Shown here: positions 2,198-14,001 of the stretch, piece after piece
Position numbering within the stretch: position 1 is the stretch's first letter
Layout of the letters: every line of letters starts with the position of its first letter
Assembly: GCA_900551625.1 (NCBI GenBank)
Contig: URWZ01000016.1
Location: 1-14,001 of the forward strand
From: an uncultured Collinsella sp.
GTDB taxonomy: Bacteria; Actinomycetota; Coriobacteriia; Coriobacteriales; Coriobacteriaceae
Direction: 5' to 3'
DNA: 14,001 nucleotides
The notes under the pieces: generated by a model
The model's database searches: none
What the model saw: the letters and a program-made list of their open reading frames with translations, nothing else
What the model was told of the DNA's origin: nothing
Made by a program: the position numbers and the translations under genes

Positions 2198-4381
2198 GTG
2201 AAGGATTCCGACCTCTCCACAACGGCTGCGCGCGACGCTGCCCGCATCGTCTGGTTTAAGCGCTACCCCGCCAAGCAGACGCTCATCGCATTTTTGCTCG
2301 CGCTGTTGGCGACCACGGCGTTTTCCATCGATCCCGCCCCGGTGTCGAGCAACGCAGTCTTGGCGATTGACCCCAAAGCCTCGGGCATGCTGTACGTGTG
2401 CTACGAGGTGCTCCTCTCGTTTGCCGGCCATACCGACGCGGTCATGCTGCTTGCGCTTGCCTGCCTGCTTACGCTGCCGTTTCGCTACGTATTCTTTGGC
2501 CGCGGTGACGCTTGGCGCCCGTCGGTCGTGCTGCCATCGCTGTTCTTTGCCGTTTGCATGGTGTTCGGCCGTAGCTACGACCTTACCGATTCGGCAGAGA
2601 TTGTGCTGGGCGACAAGGCACGCGTTATCTGCGCCTGGATTGGCGGCGCGGGCTGGATGCTTCTGGCGATTGTGGCCTTCTATCTGGCTTTTGAGTTTTT
2701 GGATTGGTTGAGCTCCCGCCGCATTCCGTTTTCGGAGACCCACTTTGGCCGCGTGTGGCGTGTTGCCCACGCCGTGCTCTCGGTCCATCCCTTTGTCGGG
2801 CCGTTTCTTGTGCTCATGATTGCCTGGGCGCCCACGCTTATCGCCTCGCTGCCCGGCCTCTTTATGGGAGATACGGGCGCGCAGATCCGCCAATGGTTCA
2901 ACTACCCCAACGGCACGAGCGATTACCTGCGCCTGCTTAACCCCAACGTGCTGCTCAACGGCCATCATCCGGTGGTGCACACGGCCATCATCGGCTCGTG
3001 CGTGCAACTGGGGCTTTCGCTGTTCAATAGCGCCAATGCGGGCCTTGCCATCTACACCTGTGCCCAATTTGTCATCACGGCCGCCTGCATGGCCTATTCC
3101 ATATCGTCGCTGCGCAAGCTGGGCGTGAGCCTGCCGGTCCGTGGCGTCACCTTGCTGTTCTTTGCGTTTATGCCGATGTTCTCCAACTATGCGGCGCTGC
3201 TGACCAAAGACGTGCTGTTTGCCGATGCGTTTTTGGTGCTGCTCGTTCAGACCGTCAAGCTCGTGGCATGTGGCCTGCCCCGTCGCGATGCCAATGCCAA
3301 GCGCGCGGGCGAACAGGCGCCTGTGCTCTTTGCACGCCACGACTGGCTGTTGCTCGTGCTGGGTGCCATGGGTTCCACGTTTTTGCGCAATGGCGGCCTG
3401 GTCTTTCCGTTGGCGGCCTGCGTGATTGCGGCGGCGTTTTGCGCTTGGGACGCGCATGTGGCCCGTCGCGTGGCCAAACAGTCTGGCGTCACGCCCTCGT
3501 ACGCCACGCCACGCTTCCGCTGGGTCGGCGTGCTCGCAGTGCTTGCGCTCTGCCTTGTCTCCAACATGTATTTCACCAAGGTCTTTATGCCGGCGCACGA
3601 TATCACGCCGGGCTCCAAGCGCGAGATCCTCTCGATTCCGTTTCAGCAGACGGCGCGCTTCGTCCAAAAGCACGACGGCCTCAACTCGGGTGTCAACCCC
3701 ACGGTTAAGGAGGACGGCACCATCGTGGAGGCTCCTTGCGACGGCTTGGTGACCGACGAAGAGCGTGCCGTGATTGACCGTGTGCTCAAGTACGAGAATC
3801 TGGGCCGCCGTTACAACCCGGATAAGTCCGATGCCGTCAAGAACTGCTTTAACGAGTACGCCTCGCAGGAGGACATCAAGGCCTATTTTGAGGTGTGGGC
3901 CCAGATGTTCAAAAAGGACCCCGAGTGCTATATCTCGGCGCTCGTCAATAACTACTACGGGTACTTCTATCCGAGCGCTCGCGATGCGTGGGTCTACAGC
4001 ACGGCGCGCAGTGCCGAGATCATGGCGAAGCCCGATAACCTCAAGTACTTTGACTTCCATCCGGTCGACAGCAAAGCCGTGCGCTGGTGCGACCACCTGA
4101 TTAACCTGTACCGCGTGGCGGTGCAGCGCATCCCGTTTATCTCGCTCACCATGAGCTCGGCCACCTACGTGTGGATCATGATCTCCGTAGTGGTCTACCT
4201 GTTGCGCCGCCATTCGTGGCGCGCGCTGGCCATCTGGATACCGCTGCTGGGCGTGCTCGCCGTGTGCCTGATCGGTCCCTGCAACGGCTCGACCTACATG
4301 CGCTACCTGTACCCGGTCATCGCATGCATGCCTTTTGCCATCGGTGCCACGATCACCCGCAGCGACCTCCTCTGGGCCTAG
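2198..4381 (+). CDS. Large multi-pass membrane protein, DUF6020-like
   Basis: A 727-residue polytopic membrane protein with about ten or more hydrophobic segments (for example residues 28-43, 83-100, 152-170, 203-222, 310-332 and several after 630). It also has a long hydrophilic, probably external region at about 475-630. I recognise it as resembling the DUF6020 family found in gut Actinobacteria and Firmicutes. The features are SLPGLFMGDTGAQIRQW (residues 217-233, with Asp225), GHHPVVHT (255-262) and TKDVLF (336-341). An acidic residue after the first membrane loop, a HHP motif and a large external loop recall GT-C type lipid-linked glycosyltransferases, but that is inference and no substrate can be named. 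Translation starts at GTG 2198 after AGAAAGG (2181-2187). It stands alone, with repeat elements on both sides and no glycan biosynthesis genes nearby. Confidence 0.7.
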   Translation: MKDSDLSTTAARDAARIVWFKRYPAKQTLIAFLLALLATTAFSIDPAPVSSNAVLAIDPKASGMLYVCYEVLLSFAGHTDAVMLLALACLLTLPFRYVFFGRGDAWRPSVVLPSLFFAVCMVFGRSYDLTDSAEIVLGDKARVICAWIGGAGWMLLAIVAFYLAFEFLDWLSSRRIPFSETHFGRVWRVAHAVLSVHPFVGPFLVLMIAWAPTLIASLPGLFMGDTGAQIRQWFNYPNGTSDYLRLLNPNVLLNGHHPVVHTAIIGSCVQLGLSLFNSANAGLAIYTCAQFVITAACMAYSISSLRKLGVSLPVRGVTLLFFAFMPMFSNYAALLTKDVLFADAFLVLLVQTVKLVACGLPRRDANAKRAGEQAPVLFARHDWLLLVLGAMGSTFLRNGGLVFPLAACVIAAAFCAWDAHVARRVAKQSGVTPSYATPRFRWVGVLAVLALCLVSNMYFTKVFMPAHDITPGSKREILSIPFQQTARFVQKHDGLNSGVNPTVKEDGTIVEAPCDGLVTDEERAVIDRVLKYENLGRRYNPDKSDAVKNCFNEYASQEDIKAYFEVWAQMFKKDPECYISALVNNYYGYFYPSARDAWVYSTARSAEIMAKPDNLKYFDFHPVDSKAVRWCDHLINLYRVAVQRIPFISLTMSSATYVWIMISVVVYLLRRHSWRALAIWIPLLGVLAVCLIGPCNGSTYMRYLYPVIACMPFAIGATITRSDLLWA

Positions 4382-8297: not shown

Positions 8298-8328
8298 TTG
8301 AGTATTTGACCCCACATTGGGCAATAAT
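8298..8328 (+). promoter_or_regulatory. Putative promoter of the zinc-ribbon membrane gene
   Basis: TTGAGT (8298-8303) and AATAAT (8323-8328) are 19 bases apart, with a predicted leader of about 55 bases to ATG 8389. A second -35-like TTGACC lies at 8306-8311. The spacing is long, so the call is tentative. Confidence 0.3.
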
Positions 8329-8388
8329 GATGCTAAAGACATCGTTTGCGATCCAAGTGATTTGTTCAAGATACGAAGGGATGATTCT

Positions 8389-9006
8389 ATGTTCTGCTCG
8401 CAGTGTGGCGCCCCCATGGGCGATAACGACAAGTTCTGCGGCGTGTGTGGTGCTCCTAATGCCGGTGCCGCTGGCCCCGCTCCCCAGGGACAGCCTCAGC
8501 CCCAGCAGTTTGTTCCGCAGCCGCCCGTGGCGAATGTGCCAAAGGGCTGTGTGGCTCAGGCGTTCCAAGATATGACCAAGACTCCGGGCGTGCTTCAGCG
8601 TGTATGCCAAATCGCGTTTTTGCCGGCGCTGATTTGCGTTGTGTCGGTGCTCGTGTTGTTTATTCCCGTTATTGGCGGCATTGCGGCTGCCATCGGCTTT
8701 TTGGCAGCTTGCATTGCGAGCGTGTGCGGTTCCGGCTTTGGTATTGAGTGGGGCCGTGATCTTTCGCTCAAGGTCGATGACGGCATGGATCGTCCGCTGA
8801 TGCGTTCCACGTCGTTTGGTCTCGGAGTCTTTTCGAGCGTTATTTCGGTCGTGCTCGAGGTTATCGCTGCCATTCCCGTTATCGGTGTAGTGCTTTCGCT
8901 GGCGGAGGGCGCGGTAATTGGCGCCGCAGGCTCGTATTCGTATTACGGCTCTTATGCGCTCGAAGCTGCGCTGTTTGGCTCGCTGGCCTGCTTGTCCTGG
9001 CGCTAA
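8389..9006 (+). pseudogene. Zinc-ribbon multi-pass membrane protein, N-terminal part of a frameshifted gene
   Basis: Residues 1-21 are a zinc ribbon (Cys3, Cys6, Cys17, Cys20; MFCSQCGAP), then a Pro/Gln/Ala linker. Hydrophobic segments start near residue 75 (LPALICVVSVLVLFIPVIGG), with further helices around 135-180. The frame stops at 9004-9006 in the middle of a hydrophobic helix (…LFGSLACLSWR). The next frame carries the rest of the helix (LLVLALIASAILGVFFKMFADIAV) and the remaining membrane domain, so a single-base deletion near 8980-8995 most likely split one gene of about 438 codons. The membrane part recalls DUF4013 proteins, tentatively. ATG 8389 has AAGGG at 8376-8380; the open frame reaches back to 8317 but those residues are unconserved-looking. 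I saw no canonical slippery heptamer at the junction. Confidence 0.7.
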
Positions 9007-9038: not shown

Positions 9039-9704
9039 ATGTTCGCCGACATTGCCGTGATGCACTTTGCGGTGACCGGGCGCGTCGAGAGCGCGTTTTC
9101 GCTCGATAAGGTCTGGGCGGCCTTTAAGCACAACAAGACCAAGCTGTTCTGTGCTTCGTTCCTTCCCGAGTTTTTGACGGGCCTGGTTTCCAACGCCATT
9201 ACGTGGATCTTGACAGCTGTCTTTGGTGCCATCGCCGGAATTGGCGCGTACGGCTATTACTATCGCCCCACGGGTATCGAGGCGATTGTTACCGCCGGTG
9301 GTGTCACGCTCGTATTGTTCCTGGTGCTGATTGCATTCGTCACGGTGTTCCTTACGGTCTTTGGCAAGATGCTCAAGCACCGTGCCGTTGGCTATTGGGC
9401 TGCACGTTATGCAAGCGAATGGGCCGATGAGGACAAGGACGACGTTTTGACTTTTGTGCTCCCGGGTGAGAAGAAGCCTGCTCCTGCGGGATTCAATCCC
9501 ACGGCAGCCACTGGTGCTGCGCCTGCCCCGGCGCCCGCGCCTGCACCTGCCCCGGCACCCGCGCCTGCCCCTGCCCCGGCACCTGCTCCTGTCCCCGCAC
9601 CGGCGTCCGAGGCGACGCCTGCGGAGCCCGATTGGGATGCCGTTGCCACGCCGGCGGATGAGCCGGGCGATAATCCTGCTGCCGAAAACAATCAAACCGA
9701 ATAG
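9039..9704 (+). pseudogene. C-terminal part of the frameshifted zinc-ribbon membrane protein, with Ala-Pro tail
   Basis: This frame continues the membrane protein begun at 8389. The coding frame is already open before the ATG at 9039, with LVLALIASAILGVFFK immediately upstream, so that ATG is probably not a real start and no ribosome site precedes it. It carries FADIAVMHFAVTGRVESAF, a pattern like the end of DUF4013 domains, two to three more membrane helices (about residues 50-75 and 88-110 of this part), and a cytoplasmic end. The tail has a run of Ala-Pro dipeptides encoded by three 24-bp tandem repeats, then an acidic Asn/Glu-rich end. A strong terminator starts 8 bases after the stop. 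If the frameshift is a base-call error, this and 8389-9006 are one intact gene. The function is unknown. Confidence 0.65.
9522..9593 (+). repeat. Three 24-bp tandem repeats encoding (Ala-Pro)n
   Basis: Units at 9522-9545, 9546-9569 and 9570-9593 follow the pattern CCTGCCCCGGCRCCCGCGCC plus TGCM. Units 1 and 2 differ at about two bases; unit 3 diverges at its 3' end. Each unit is eight codons (Pro-Ala x4), so copy-number changes keep the frame. The protein tract is probably a stiff, extended linker. Confidence 0.85.
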
Positions 9705-9899: not shown

Positions 9900-10508
9900 A
9901 TGTTCTGTCCCACTTGTGGTTCTCCCATTTCGGATGATGCCAAATTCTGCCCTGTTTGCGGATCCGCCGTTGGTGCCGCTTCTGCCGCTGCGGCCCCGCA
10001 GCCCCAGCCCGCTCCGGCCCAGGCTATTCAGCCCGCGCCCCAGCCTCAGCAGCAGTACACCGGTCAATACGCCCAACAGTCCGCATCCGCTCCGATGGGC
10101 TATGACCCCATTAAGGCTGACCGCAGCCTGATCGGCTGGCTGCTGCTCTCTCTTGTGACCTGCGGTATCTATTCGTTCTACTTCCTGTATTGCTTGGCAC
10201 GCGACGTCAACACGTTGTGTCAGGATGACGGCGATTACACGCCGGGTCTGGCGGAATTCATCCTTCTATCGTTTGTGACCTGCGGCTTCTACGCGTACTA
10301 CTGGTATTACAAGATTGGCAACCGCCTGCAGGCCAACGCTCCTCGCTACGGCCTGGTGTTCCAGGAAAACGGCACCACCGTTCTTCTGTGGCAGATCTTC
10401 GGCGCGCTCCTGTGCGGCCTTGGTCCCATCTTCGCTATGAACATCGTCATCAATAATACCAATGCCATGGCAACGGCTTACAACACTCGCCTTGGCGCTC
10501 GTGCCTAA
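9900..10508 (+). CDS. Zinc-ribbon DUF4234-like membrane protein
   Basis: A 202-residue protein. Residues 1-21 form a zinc ribbon nearly identical in layout to that of the gene at 8389 (Cys3, Cys6, Cys17, Cys20; MFCPTCGSPI). A Pro/Gln/Ala linker (about 31-65) leads to a membrane domain of DUF4234 type with two internally similar helical hairpins: LLSLVTCGIYSFYFLYCLARDVN (start 82) and LLSFVTCGFYAYYWYYKIGNRLQ (start 122). A third membrane helix lies at about 161-185. The 40-residue spacing and shared VTCG[IF]Y motif suggest an internal duplication. AAAGGAGAG precedes the ATG closely. Zinc-ribbon/DUF4234 proteins are common in gut Actinobacteria and Firmicutes with no assigned role. The next gene (DUF2752) begins about 13 bases after the stop and is probably cotranscribed. 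Confidence 0.88.
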   Translation: MFCPTCGSPISDDAKFCPVCGSAVGAASAAAAPQPQPAPAQAIQPAPQPQQQYTGQYAQQSASAPMGYDPIKADRSLIGWLLLSLVTCGIYSFYFLYCLARDVNTLCQDDGDYTPGLAEFILLSFVTCGFYAYYWYYKIGNRLQANAPRYGLVFQENGTTVLLWQIFGALLCGLGPIFAMNIVINNTNAMATAYNTRLGARA

Positions 10509-11104: not shown

Positions 11105-12568
11105 CTACTCGTCGCGCTTTTCCTCGTGGCGAGCGGCAGCCCGCGCATCGTGGATGCCCTTGATTGCAGCATGGCGGGCGGTGCGAGCATCGTGCATGGC
11201 GTCGCGCGCCTCAGCGGCCGTGGCCTTGGCAGAGCGCAGCTTGGCGGCCAAGTCGGGGTTGGTCTCGGCAACCGCGGCGATCGTGGGGCCGTCGAGCTCC
11301 TCTTGCGTGGGCTCGGCCAAAAAGTCGATAGCATACTGGGCGGCCACCATGGAGCCCTTTGCCAGCACGGTCTCGTCAATCTTGTAGAAGCAAGAATGTT
11401 GGGCGTACGTGGCGCCAATCTGGGGGTTGCGCGTGCCAACAAAGGCGAGCACGCCCGGCACGCGGCGCAGGTACTCCGAGAAGTCCTCGCCCGAAAGCGT
11501 GCCGCGATAATGGCCTTCGCCCGCGGGGCCCAAGCACTTGACCACGGCCTGACGGCAGCGCTCGCTCGAGGCGGCGTCGTTTTCGACCTTGTAGTTGGCG
11601 ATGGTGTAGTCGGTGAGCTCTGCCTCGGCGCCCAAGGCGGCCGCGGTATGCTCCACGATGCGGCGCATAAGCTCCGGCATTTCCTCGTGGGTCGAATCTC
11701 CGTAGGTGCGCACCGTGCCGGCGAGGTAGGCCGTGCCGGCGATAACGTTGCGCGCGGTGCCGCCGTGCAGCTCGCCGACGGTGATGACGGCCGGCTCGTA
11801 GGGGCTGATTTCGCGCGAGACGATGGTCTGCAGGGCGTTGACAATCTCGGCGGCAACCATGACGGCGTCGTGACCTCGCTGGGGCATGGCGCCATGGCAC
11901 GAGGTGCCGCGGACGTCGATGCGGAACCAGTCGGTATTGGCCATGCGCGGACCGGGCTCGCAGCTCACGGTGCCGGCGTCGACCTCACTCCAGATGTGCG
12001 CGGCGTAGGCGCCATCGACGCCGTCGAGCACGCCCGTGCCGATCATGAGCTTGGCGCCCTGGCCGTTTTCCTCGCTGGGCTGGAAGACGATGCGGACCTC
12101 GCCGTGGATGTCGTCGGTCATATGGCGCAGGATTTGCAGCGTGCCGAGCATCATGGCGATATGGCAGTCGTGACCGCAGGCGTGCATGCAGCCCTCGTTG
12201 ACGCTGGCGAACTCCTCGCCGGTCTGCTCGGTGACGGGCAGGGCGTCGATGTCGGCGCGCAGCAGGATGCGGCGGCGTGGCGTGCCGTCCTCGCGGTAGG
12301 CATCCGGCGCGGTACCGCGAAGCGTTGCCACCAAGCCGGTCTTGAGCGGACGCTCGTAGGGGATATTCATGGCGTCGAGCTGGTTGGCGATGTCGGAGGT
12401 CGTGCGCTCCTCGGCAAGGCTCAGCTCCGGGTGCTTATGGAAGTGCCGGCGCTGCTTGATGATATATGGTTCAAATTCGGTAGCGATATCTTTGATGGCT
12501 GCGGTGACGTCGTCAGCCGCGCGAGCCTCGGTCGCCGCCATAATCTGCTGTGCCTTGGTCTTCGTCAT
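11105..12568 (-). CDS. M20 family amidohydrolase/peptidase (M20D-like) with C-terminal helical tail
   Basis: A 487-residue cytoplasmic metal-dependent hydrolase of the M20D group (hippurate hydrolase, N-acyl-amino-acid amidohydrolase type). The metal site is complete: Cys131-Gly-His133-Asp134 (HACGHD), Glu166-Glu167 (PSEENG), His191 and His391, plus RADIDALP (104-111). The dimerisation domain lies at about 207-325, with SCHGAMPQRGHDAV and GGTARNVIAG. It resembles amidohydrolases that remove acyl groups from amino acids; the substrate cannot be named. Typical members are ~390-400 residues, so the last ~65 residues (about 423-487), rich in Ala, Arg and His, are an extra helical tail with HDAR repeated 14 residues apart (459, 473). 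The true start is ATG at 12568 with AAGGAG (12579-12584); the frame's apparent extension further right is spurious and ends in adapter sequence. Confidence 0.92.
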   Translation of the reverse strand: MTKTKAQQIMAATEARAADDVTAAIKDIATEFEPYIIKQRRHFHKHPELSLAEERTTSDIANQLDAMNIPYERPLKTGLVATLRGTAPDAYREDGTPRRRILLRADIDALPVTEQTGEEFASVNEGCMHACGHDCHIAMMLGTLQILRHMTDDIHGEVRIVFQPSEENGQGAKLMIGTGVLDGVDGAYAAHIWSEVDAGTVSCEPGPRMANTDWFRIDVRGTSCHGAMPQRGHDAVMVAAEIVNALQTIVSREISPYEPAVITVGELHGGTARNVIAGTAYLAGTVRTYGDSTHEEMPELMRRIVEHTAAALGAEAELTDYTIANYKVENDAASSERCRQAVVKCLGPAGEGHYRGTLSGEDFSEYLRRVPGVLAFVGTRNPQIGATYAQHSCFYKIDETVLAKGSMVAAQYAIDFLAEPTQEELDGPTIAAVAETNPDLAAKLRSAKATAAEARDAMHDARTARHAAIKGIHDARAAARHEEKRDE

Positions 12569-12619
12569 GGTCGATTTGCTCCTTGCTGGGTTGATCGCAA
12601 AATCGTACAGGCTCTCTCC

Positions 12620-12649
12620 AGTATGCCACCTGCCGCTAGGGCTGGTAAA
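12620..12649 (-). promoter_or_regulatory. Putative promoter of the M20 gene
   Basis: On the minus strand TTTACC (12644-12649) and CATACT (12620-12625) are 18 bases apart, each a 4-of-6 match. A start near 12613 would give a leader of about 45 bases. The divergent gene needs a promoter in the same 162-bp gap, where TTACAA (12676-12681) is a possible -10. Confidence 0.4.
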
Positions 12650-12730
12650 GTTGCCGTTTGCCGCTTGGGGTTTTGTTACAAGGGCGGGGGAGTACACTCG
12701 GGGGTGTTGAATTTCCTGCCAGAGATGGGG

Positions 12731-13957
12731 ATGCCCATGCAACATATCGATCGGATTATCCGCTCCAAGAACGTCTTTACCGCGCAAGACGGCATCGATA
12801 CCGCCCGCGAGCTGGCGATTGCCATCGCAGGCGACCGTATCGTCGCAGTCGGTGCGCCCGATGACGTGATTGCCGCCGCGCCTGCCGCCACGCCGGTTAT
12901 CGACTGCGGCGAGCAGTTTGTCTGCCCCGGTTTCCATGACGCTCATCTGCACTTCTTCCATACCTCGGTCGGTTCCTCGCCGTACATGCTCATGGATATG
13001 GGTACGTCCGAGGCGGCACTGGTGCAACACGCGCTCGAGTTTTCCCAGGATCTGCCCGACGACGCCTGGGTTGTGACGCAGGGATGGCGCGACTACCGTT
13101 GGGACCCGCCCGAGCATCCTACCAAGGCGTCGCTCGATGCAGCATTCCCCGATCGTCCCTGCGTTATGTATTCGGGCGACGGGCACACGCTTTGGCTCAA
13201 CAGCCGCGCACTCGAGGCGCTCGGCGTCACGCGCGACAGCGAGCCGCCAGCGGGCGGCAGTTACGACAAGGACGCAAGCGGCGAGCTCACGGGCATTGCG
13301 CACGAAGCGGCTGCCATGCAGCTGCTGCCGCGCTGCCTTGAGTGGCTGGGCGAAGGTCGCATCGCAAGCGCTTACGCCGATCAAATGAGGCGCATGGCCG
13401 AGCAGGGTATTACTTCGATCTGCGATATGTCGCTCATGCCCATGCCGGGCTGCGATTTTATCCGCGACGATGTCTACGACAAATTGCAGACGGCCGGTAG
13501 GCTGGGCATTCGTGCCCATCTGTTTCCCACGCTGCTGGATGACCAGTCGCGTCTGGAAGAGCTGCAGGTACGTTACGCGAACAACGCGCTGCTTTCGGCG
13601 CCGGGTTTTAAGCAGTTCTTCGACGGCGTGTCGAGTGAACACACGGCATATCTCACTGAGCCCTATACCAATCCGCGCTTCCCGGGCGACCAGGGCCGTC
13701 TGACGGTCCCGGTTGAGCGCATGCGCAAACTGGTTCTGGCGGCCGCGGAGCGCGGTCACACCGTGCGCATCCACGTCATTGGTGACGGTGCGATTCATGC
13801 CGCGCTGGATATCTTCGAGGAGGCGGCCGATCTGTACGGCCTGCCCCAGCACGGCCATAACACGCTCGAGCACCTGGAGAACCTTCTGCCCGAGGACATC
13901 GACCGCCTGCGCAAGCTCAACGTGGTTGCTTCGAGCCAGCCCTGCCATATCACGCTC
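12731..13957 (+). CDS. YtcJ-like amidohydrolase, partial (3' end missing)
   Basis: An amidohydrolase_3 family metal-dependent hydrolase, 409 residues before the genuine sequence ends; family members are usually ~530-550, so roughly a quarter is missing. The N-terminal β-strand domain (IIRSKNVFTAQ) leads to PGFHDAHLHF (residues 66-75; His72 and His74 are the metal-binding HxH). GDGHTLWLNSRAL follows, the typical GVSSEHTAYLTEPY segment comes later, and then IHVIGDGAIHAAL and LEHLENL. In-frame ATG codons at 12725, 12731 and 12737 are possible; GAG at 12722-12724 sits 6 bases before 12731. YtcJ-like enzymes hydrolyse various amide or cyclic substrates; the substrate is unknown. It is divergent from the M20 amidohydrolase across 162 bp, which suggests shared regulation. 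After 13957 the frame reads LSLIHISEPTRRYA, which is adapter, not protein. Confidence 0.9.
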
Positions 13958-14001
13958 CTGTCTCTTATACACATCTCCGAGCCCACGAGACGCTACGCTA
14001 T
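13958..14001 (+). other. Illumina Nextera adapter contamination at the contig end
   Basis: CTGTCTCTTATACACATCT (13958-13976) is the 19-bp Tn5 mosaic end. CCGAGCCCACGAGAC (13977-13991) is the Nextera read-2 adapter. GCTACGCT (13992-13999) matches my memory of index N709, and AT begins the P7 part. These 44 bases are a library artefact and not chromosomal DNA. Confidence 0.97.

Follow-up and report, generated by a model that had tools for sequence, protein, structure and literature searches.

The window, i.e., the whole stretch of 14,001 nucleotides that was analysed, contains a gene for a large DUF6020 family protein (PF19484) at 2198–4381 and one for a protein with a long proline-alanine repeat (gene at 9039–9704, repeat at 9454–9704), the latter flanked by genes for zinc-ribbon proteins (8317–9006 and 9900–10508). 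The right edge, on which emphasis is placed here, includes two genuine genes, one false reading frame and four consecutive segments of adapter letters:

11105..12568, minus strand: genuine Peptidase_M20 gene, left of the cut gene; likely start ATG 12568, which is residue 469 of the false frame
12731..13957, plus strand: genuine amidohydrolase (PF07969) gene, cut on its 3' side; 409 codons from ATG 12731, with ATG 12725 and ATG 12737 also in frame
11105..13972, minus strand: false frame of 955 aa that starts with MYKRQ in the adapter (GTG 13972) and runs antisense to the amidohydrolase gene, then into the M20 gene
13958..13976, plus strand: Tn5 mosaic end, 19 bases, CTGTCTCTTATACACATCT; identical to the Tn5MErev oligo (PMC4248319, in the portion available)
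13977..13991, plus strand: rest of the Nextera read-2 adapter (P7 side), 15 bases, CCGAGCCCACGAGAC; reverse-complementary to Tn5ME-B in its 5' part (PMC4248319, same portion)
13992..13999, plus strand: sample index, 8 bases, GCTACGCT; Ad2.9 in a published table (available in part), and present also in two stretches of other genomes (L032 and L081)
14000..14001, plus strand: start of P7, AT, two bases only; same order in the PMC7814285 primer table (available in part)

Terminal letters and the cut amidohydrolase gene

Compared letter by letter, the 44 terminal bases of the window (13958–14001) are adapter letters throughout, with 0 mismatches. Directly behind the mosaic end comes the read-2 tail, then a listed 8-base index and P7, of which two bases are present. 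The mosaic-end and Tn5ME-B oligonucleotides printed in the available portion of PMC4248319 are identical to the letters of the window, in excerpts of the PMC7814285 and PMC7156688 primer tables GCTACGCT (as Ad2.9 or Primer2.9) has P7 on one side and the same tail on the other, and an excerpt of PMC6460022 names the same 34-base adapter among trimming sequences. The preliminary description, which read the last 44 bases as mosaic end, read-2 adapter, 8-base index and P7 start, thus agrees base for base with the window and with the excerpted published oligonucleotides. The adapter sits at the extreme end of the window, 14001 presumably being the last base of the contig as well, and the mosaic end occurs there in a single copy even when up to three mismatches are permitted. 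The index GCTACGCT is taken here to be the one that Illumina names N709; a literature search for the two together gave no match.

These letters adjoin a gene that lacks its 3' side. The protein encoded by the cut gene matches the Amidohydro_3 profile (PF07969; E 6.3e-49) at positions 2–337 of 472 only, and is therefore without its C-terminal part. A search of 58 genomes taken as relatives gave matches to 12600–13957 in 36, some of them over short lengths, and the junction was compared in the 20 best-scoring of these 36. All 20 have a base homologous to 13957 that is followed by conserved genomic sequence coding for DPGGPERDLG (73–99% identity), and the amidohydrolase frame in them is open for 547–550 codons from the projected start; the window leaves this conserved sequence exactly after base 13957 (20/20 loci examined). 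The claim that the chromosome is cut at the right edge inside a gene, which the preliminary description labelled YtcJ-like, is borne out by these relatives, none of which has the same 44 bases as its genomic continuation, the observation that had been named as contrary to an adapter. At the protein level, 1430 relatives of the cut gene passed the E-value threshold, and the uncut continuation ITLDPGG is present in 109 of the best 120 listed. The sources named for these 120 include Collinsella sp. at 97% identity (P0014) and, at 72%, C. tanakaei and C. stercoris, which would put the window in or close to Collinsella. An adapter-coded peptide occurs in 0 of these best 120 of 1430 relatives, so no database copy of this tail was seen there. 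One homologue, a database amidohydrolase of 630 aa (P0001), has a duplicated inner segment, one copy of which is clearly divergent by eye, and may have been assembled as a chimera from two related species.

The amidohydrolase frame stays open to the end of the window, as it would if the terminal bases were genuine genomic sequence with a fortuitous likeness to an adapter. The chance of this is negligible, given that the mosaic end appeared in 0 of 200 dinucleotide-preserving shuffles of the window and that a different conserved continuation is found in 20/20 of the relatives examined. A real insertion of Tn5/IS50 or of an engineered transposon into the amidohydrolase gene would likewise begin abruptly within a gene, and its 19-base mosaic end is that of hyperactive Tn5 (PMC4248319, in part). 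It is nevertheless rejected as extremely improbable, because the mosaic end leads into the read-2 tail, then a listed index and the first bases of P7, and not into a transposon body; moreover, according to the same portion of that source, wild-type ends were replaced by mosaic ends in vitro.

The same adapter in other genomes and its proposed origin at this edge

Scanning the 34-base core across genome contigs gave at least 129 occurrences in at least 120 stretches of other genomes, belonging to several phyla as judged by record title. Many of the adapter-bearing records come from a few studies, again by title, and hence the records are not independent. Among the matches listed, no more than 42 bases separate the adapter from the end of the stretch in 127 of 129 occurrences, the exceptions being L044, where it lies 156 bases from the end, and L063, where it is internal and beside a run of N. 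In a separate count, 6 of 98 related genomes contained mosaic ends, and the reversed-pattern control gave 0.

The bases that precede the 129 listed junctions are biased, with C at −1 in 46 and G at −9 in 51, against a background of about 0.24 (C) and 0.23 (G) measured on the first 85 occurrences. Such a bias is expected from the target preference of Tn5, and the junction of the window fits it partly: C is present at −1, whereas −9 is occupied by A.

Where at least 10 bases follow the core, an 8-base index and then an exact P7 are present in 96 of 105 listed occurrences; of the nine others, the six inspected show longer indexes, mismatches or N. The 96 include 14 different indexes, 12 of which are in the excerpted table of PMC7814285 while CGGAGCCT and TACGCTGC are absent from that excerpt, and GCTACGCT is represented twice (L032 and L081). 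Sample barcodes are bound to have this form, in which a listed index varies while its flanks stay constant.

The terminal 44 bases are an assembly artefact of a familiar type, which the preliminary description had recognised correctly, and with a probability of about 0.99 they represent untrimmed Nextera library adapter left by a Tn5 cut, short-insert read-through and extension by the assembler. The letters and the junction are observed directly; what transposase, sequencer and assembler did is proposed from the way such libraries work. Tn5 transposase would have cut genomic DNA after 13957, attaching the mosaic end and the read-2 tail, and PCR would have added the index GCTACGCT and P7. Wherever a read exceeded the length of its insert, sequencing would then have continued into the adapter, incomplete trimming would have left adapter on the reads, and an assembler with no better continuation may have followed the adapter-bearing reads as far as they went, two bases into P7.

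Joining of the adapter by chimeric ligation or as an adapter concatemer, instead of by read-through of a short insert, would yield the same letters, being separable only with reads, and the two occurrences distant from a stretch end (L044 and L063) are in keeping with such events elsewhere. For the window this origin is improbable, as there is one clean copy in native orientation at the extreme end, the usual layout of read-through.

The value of recognising adapter at this edge is that of a warning to trim, and its biological interest is small. The amidohydrolase has to be treated as truncated at 13957, and nothing should be concluded about the organism beyond that base.

False protein ends in the window and in databases

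The adapter reads LSLIHISEPTRRYA in the first plus-strand frame; minus-strand translation gives SVASRGLGDVYKRQ and IA*RLVGSEMCIRD. The amidohydrolase frame is fused to LSLIHISEPTRRYA, a tail of 14 residues, and is open to the window end, as had been described from the plus strand; the MYKRQ and MCIRDR starts announced for the opposite strand are likewise both coded by the adapter. The MCIRDR frame, from ATG 13974, reaches a stop after 59 residues.

For the leftward frame of 955 residues, the preliminary description was right about a start within the adapter, whereas the length is a matter of chance antisense openness. In relatives free of adapter the same antisense frame extends 65–252 codons further to the right; leftward, it is fully open (950 codons) in 2 of the 20 relatives and interrupted in 18. 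This indicates that the adapter provides the false start and the chance antisense openness the length. Residues 1–440, the part before the M20 gene, gave 0 matches in the protein database at E ≤ 0.001 with 7985 candidates scored, these being restricted to 0.55–1.75 times the query length, so that short spurious copies could not appear. Neither the 14-residue plus-strand tail nor the MYKRQ start should be annotated.

At each of 85 of the at least 129 occurrences elsewhere, the two reverse frames able to start in the adapter were followed; of these 170, 25 (15 MYKRQ and 10 MCIRD) stay open over 100 residues or more, and therefore false N-termini of this sort can enter databases. One such frame is a cut alanyl-tRNA synthetase in L042. 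Among the best 120 listed relatives of the L042 protein there is one, an alanyl-tRNA synthetase relative of 649 aa (P0154), that begins with MYKRQ, and it is the only such start in 240 database proteins inspected; the L042 protein itself is absent at high identity from these 120, the best of which stands at 58%.

The related peptide DVYKRQ appears with LSLI.. or CLLYTS, in excerpts of three papers, as mosaic-end-coded residues of Tn5-type linker insertions (PMC11075570, PMC4106830, and PMC3066235), and in an excerpt of a fourth it is used in a linker (PMC9917459). The excerpted literature found on MYKRQ and DVYKRQ does not describe adapter-coded peptides as marks of database contamination; the match for MYKRQ itself was a paper on fish oestrogen receptors, which is unrelated. 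The statement that these peptides are known signatures of the artefact in databases is thus supported by the MYKRQ start of P0154, the one record that speaks for it, and not by the excerpted literature. There is about an even chance that the artefact is systematic enough for MYKRQ, MCIRD, and LSLIHISEPTR to define a class of false protein ends that can be searched for throughout public protein databases, one that biases statistics on start sites and domain ends and in which the index records the source library.

Comparison with known adapter residues

Bare mosaic-end residues, found in four relatives (G022, G035, G055, and G072), consist of the same 19 bases at the extreme end of a contig. They stop exactly after these 19 bases in the seven loci read, whereas the window goes on into tail, index and P7. 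The loci fetched from the four genomes (L021, L023–L025, L027, L029, and L030) have the bare mosaic end exactly at the contig end in 7/7 cases.

Nextera mate-pair junctions contain the same mosaic end, with two copies back to back over 38 bases, as seen inside a contig of the relative G018 (L022); they are internal, palindromic and without index or P7, unlike the window. In G018, 20 of 30 mosaic-end hits, as counted from the listing, form 10 back-to-back pairs within contigs, and the 38-base junction was read at L022:1501–1538 (L028 is the same place), a region to which other genomes match only in short separate pieces. These pairs are presumably uncleaned Nextera mate-pair junctions. In G095, a genome of the same order, there are ten hits to the mosaic end; the one that was read, at L026:127–164, has an imperfect copy of the mosaic end behind it in reversed orientation.

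The closest counterpart is read-through into the i7-side Nextera adapter after Tn5 tagmentation, with which the window shares, at its sequence end, the mosaic end, CCGAGCCCACGAGAC, an index of 8 bases and the beginning of P7. There is no substantial difference between the two, the tail of the window stopping two bases into P7, and the layout is the same as in the 96 occurrences among the matches listed from contigs of other genomes.
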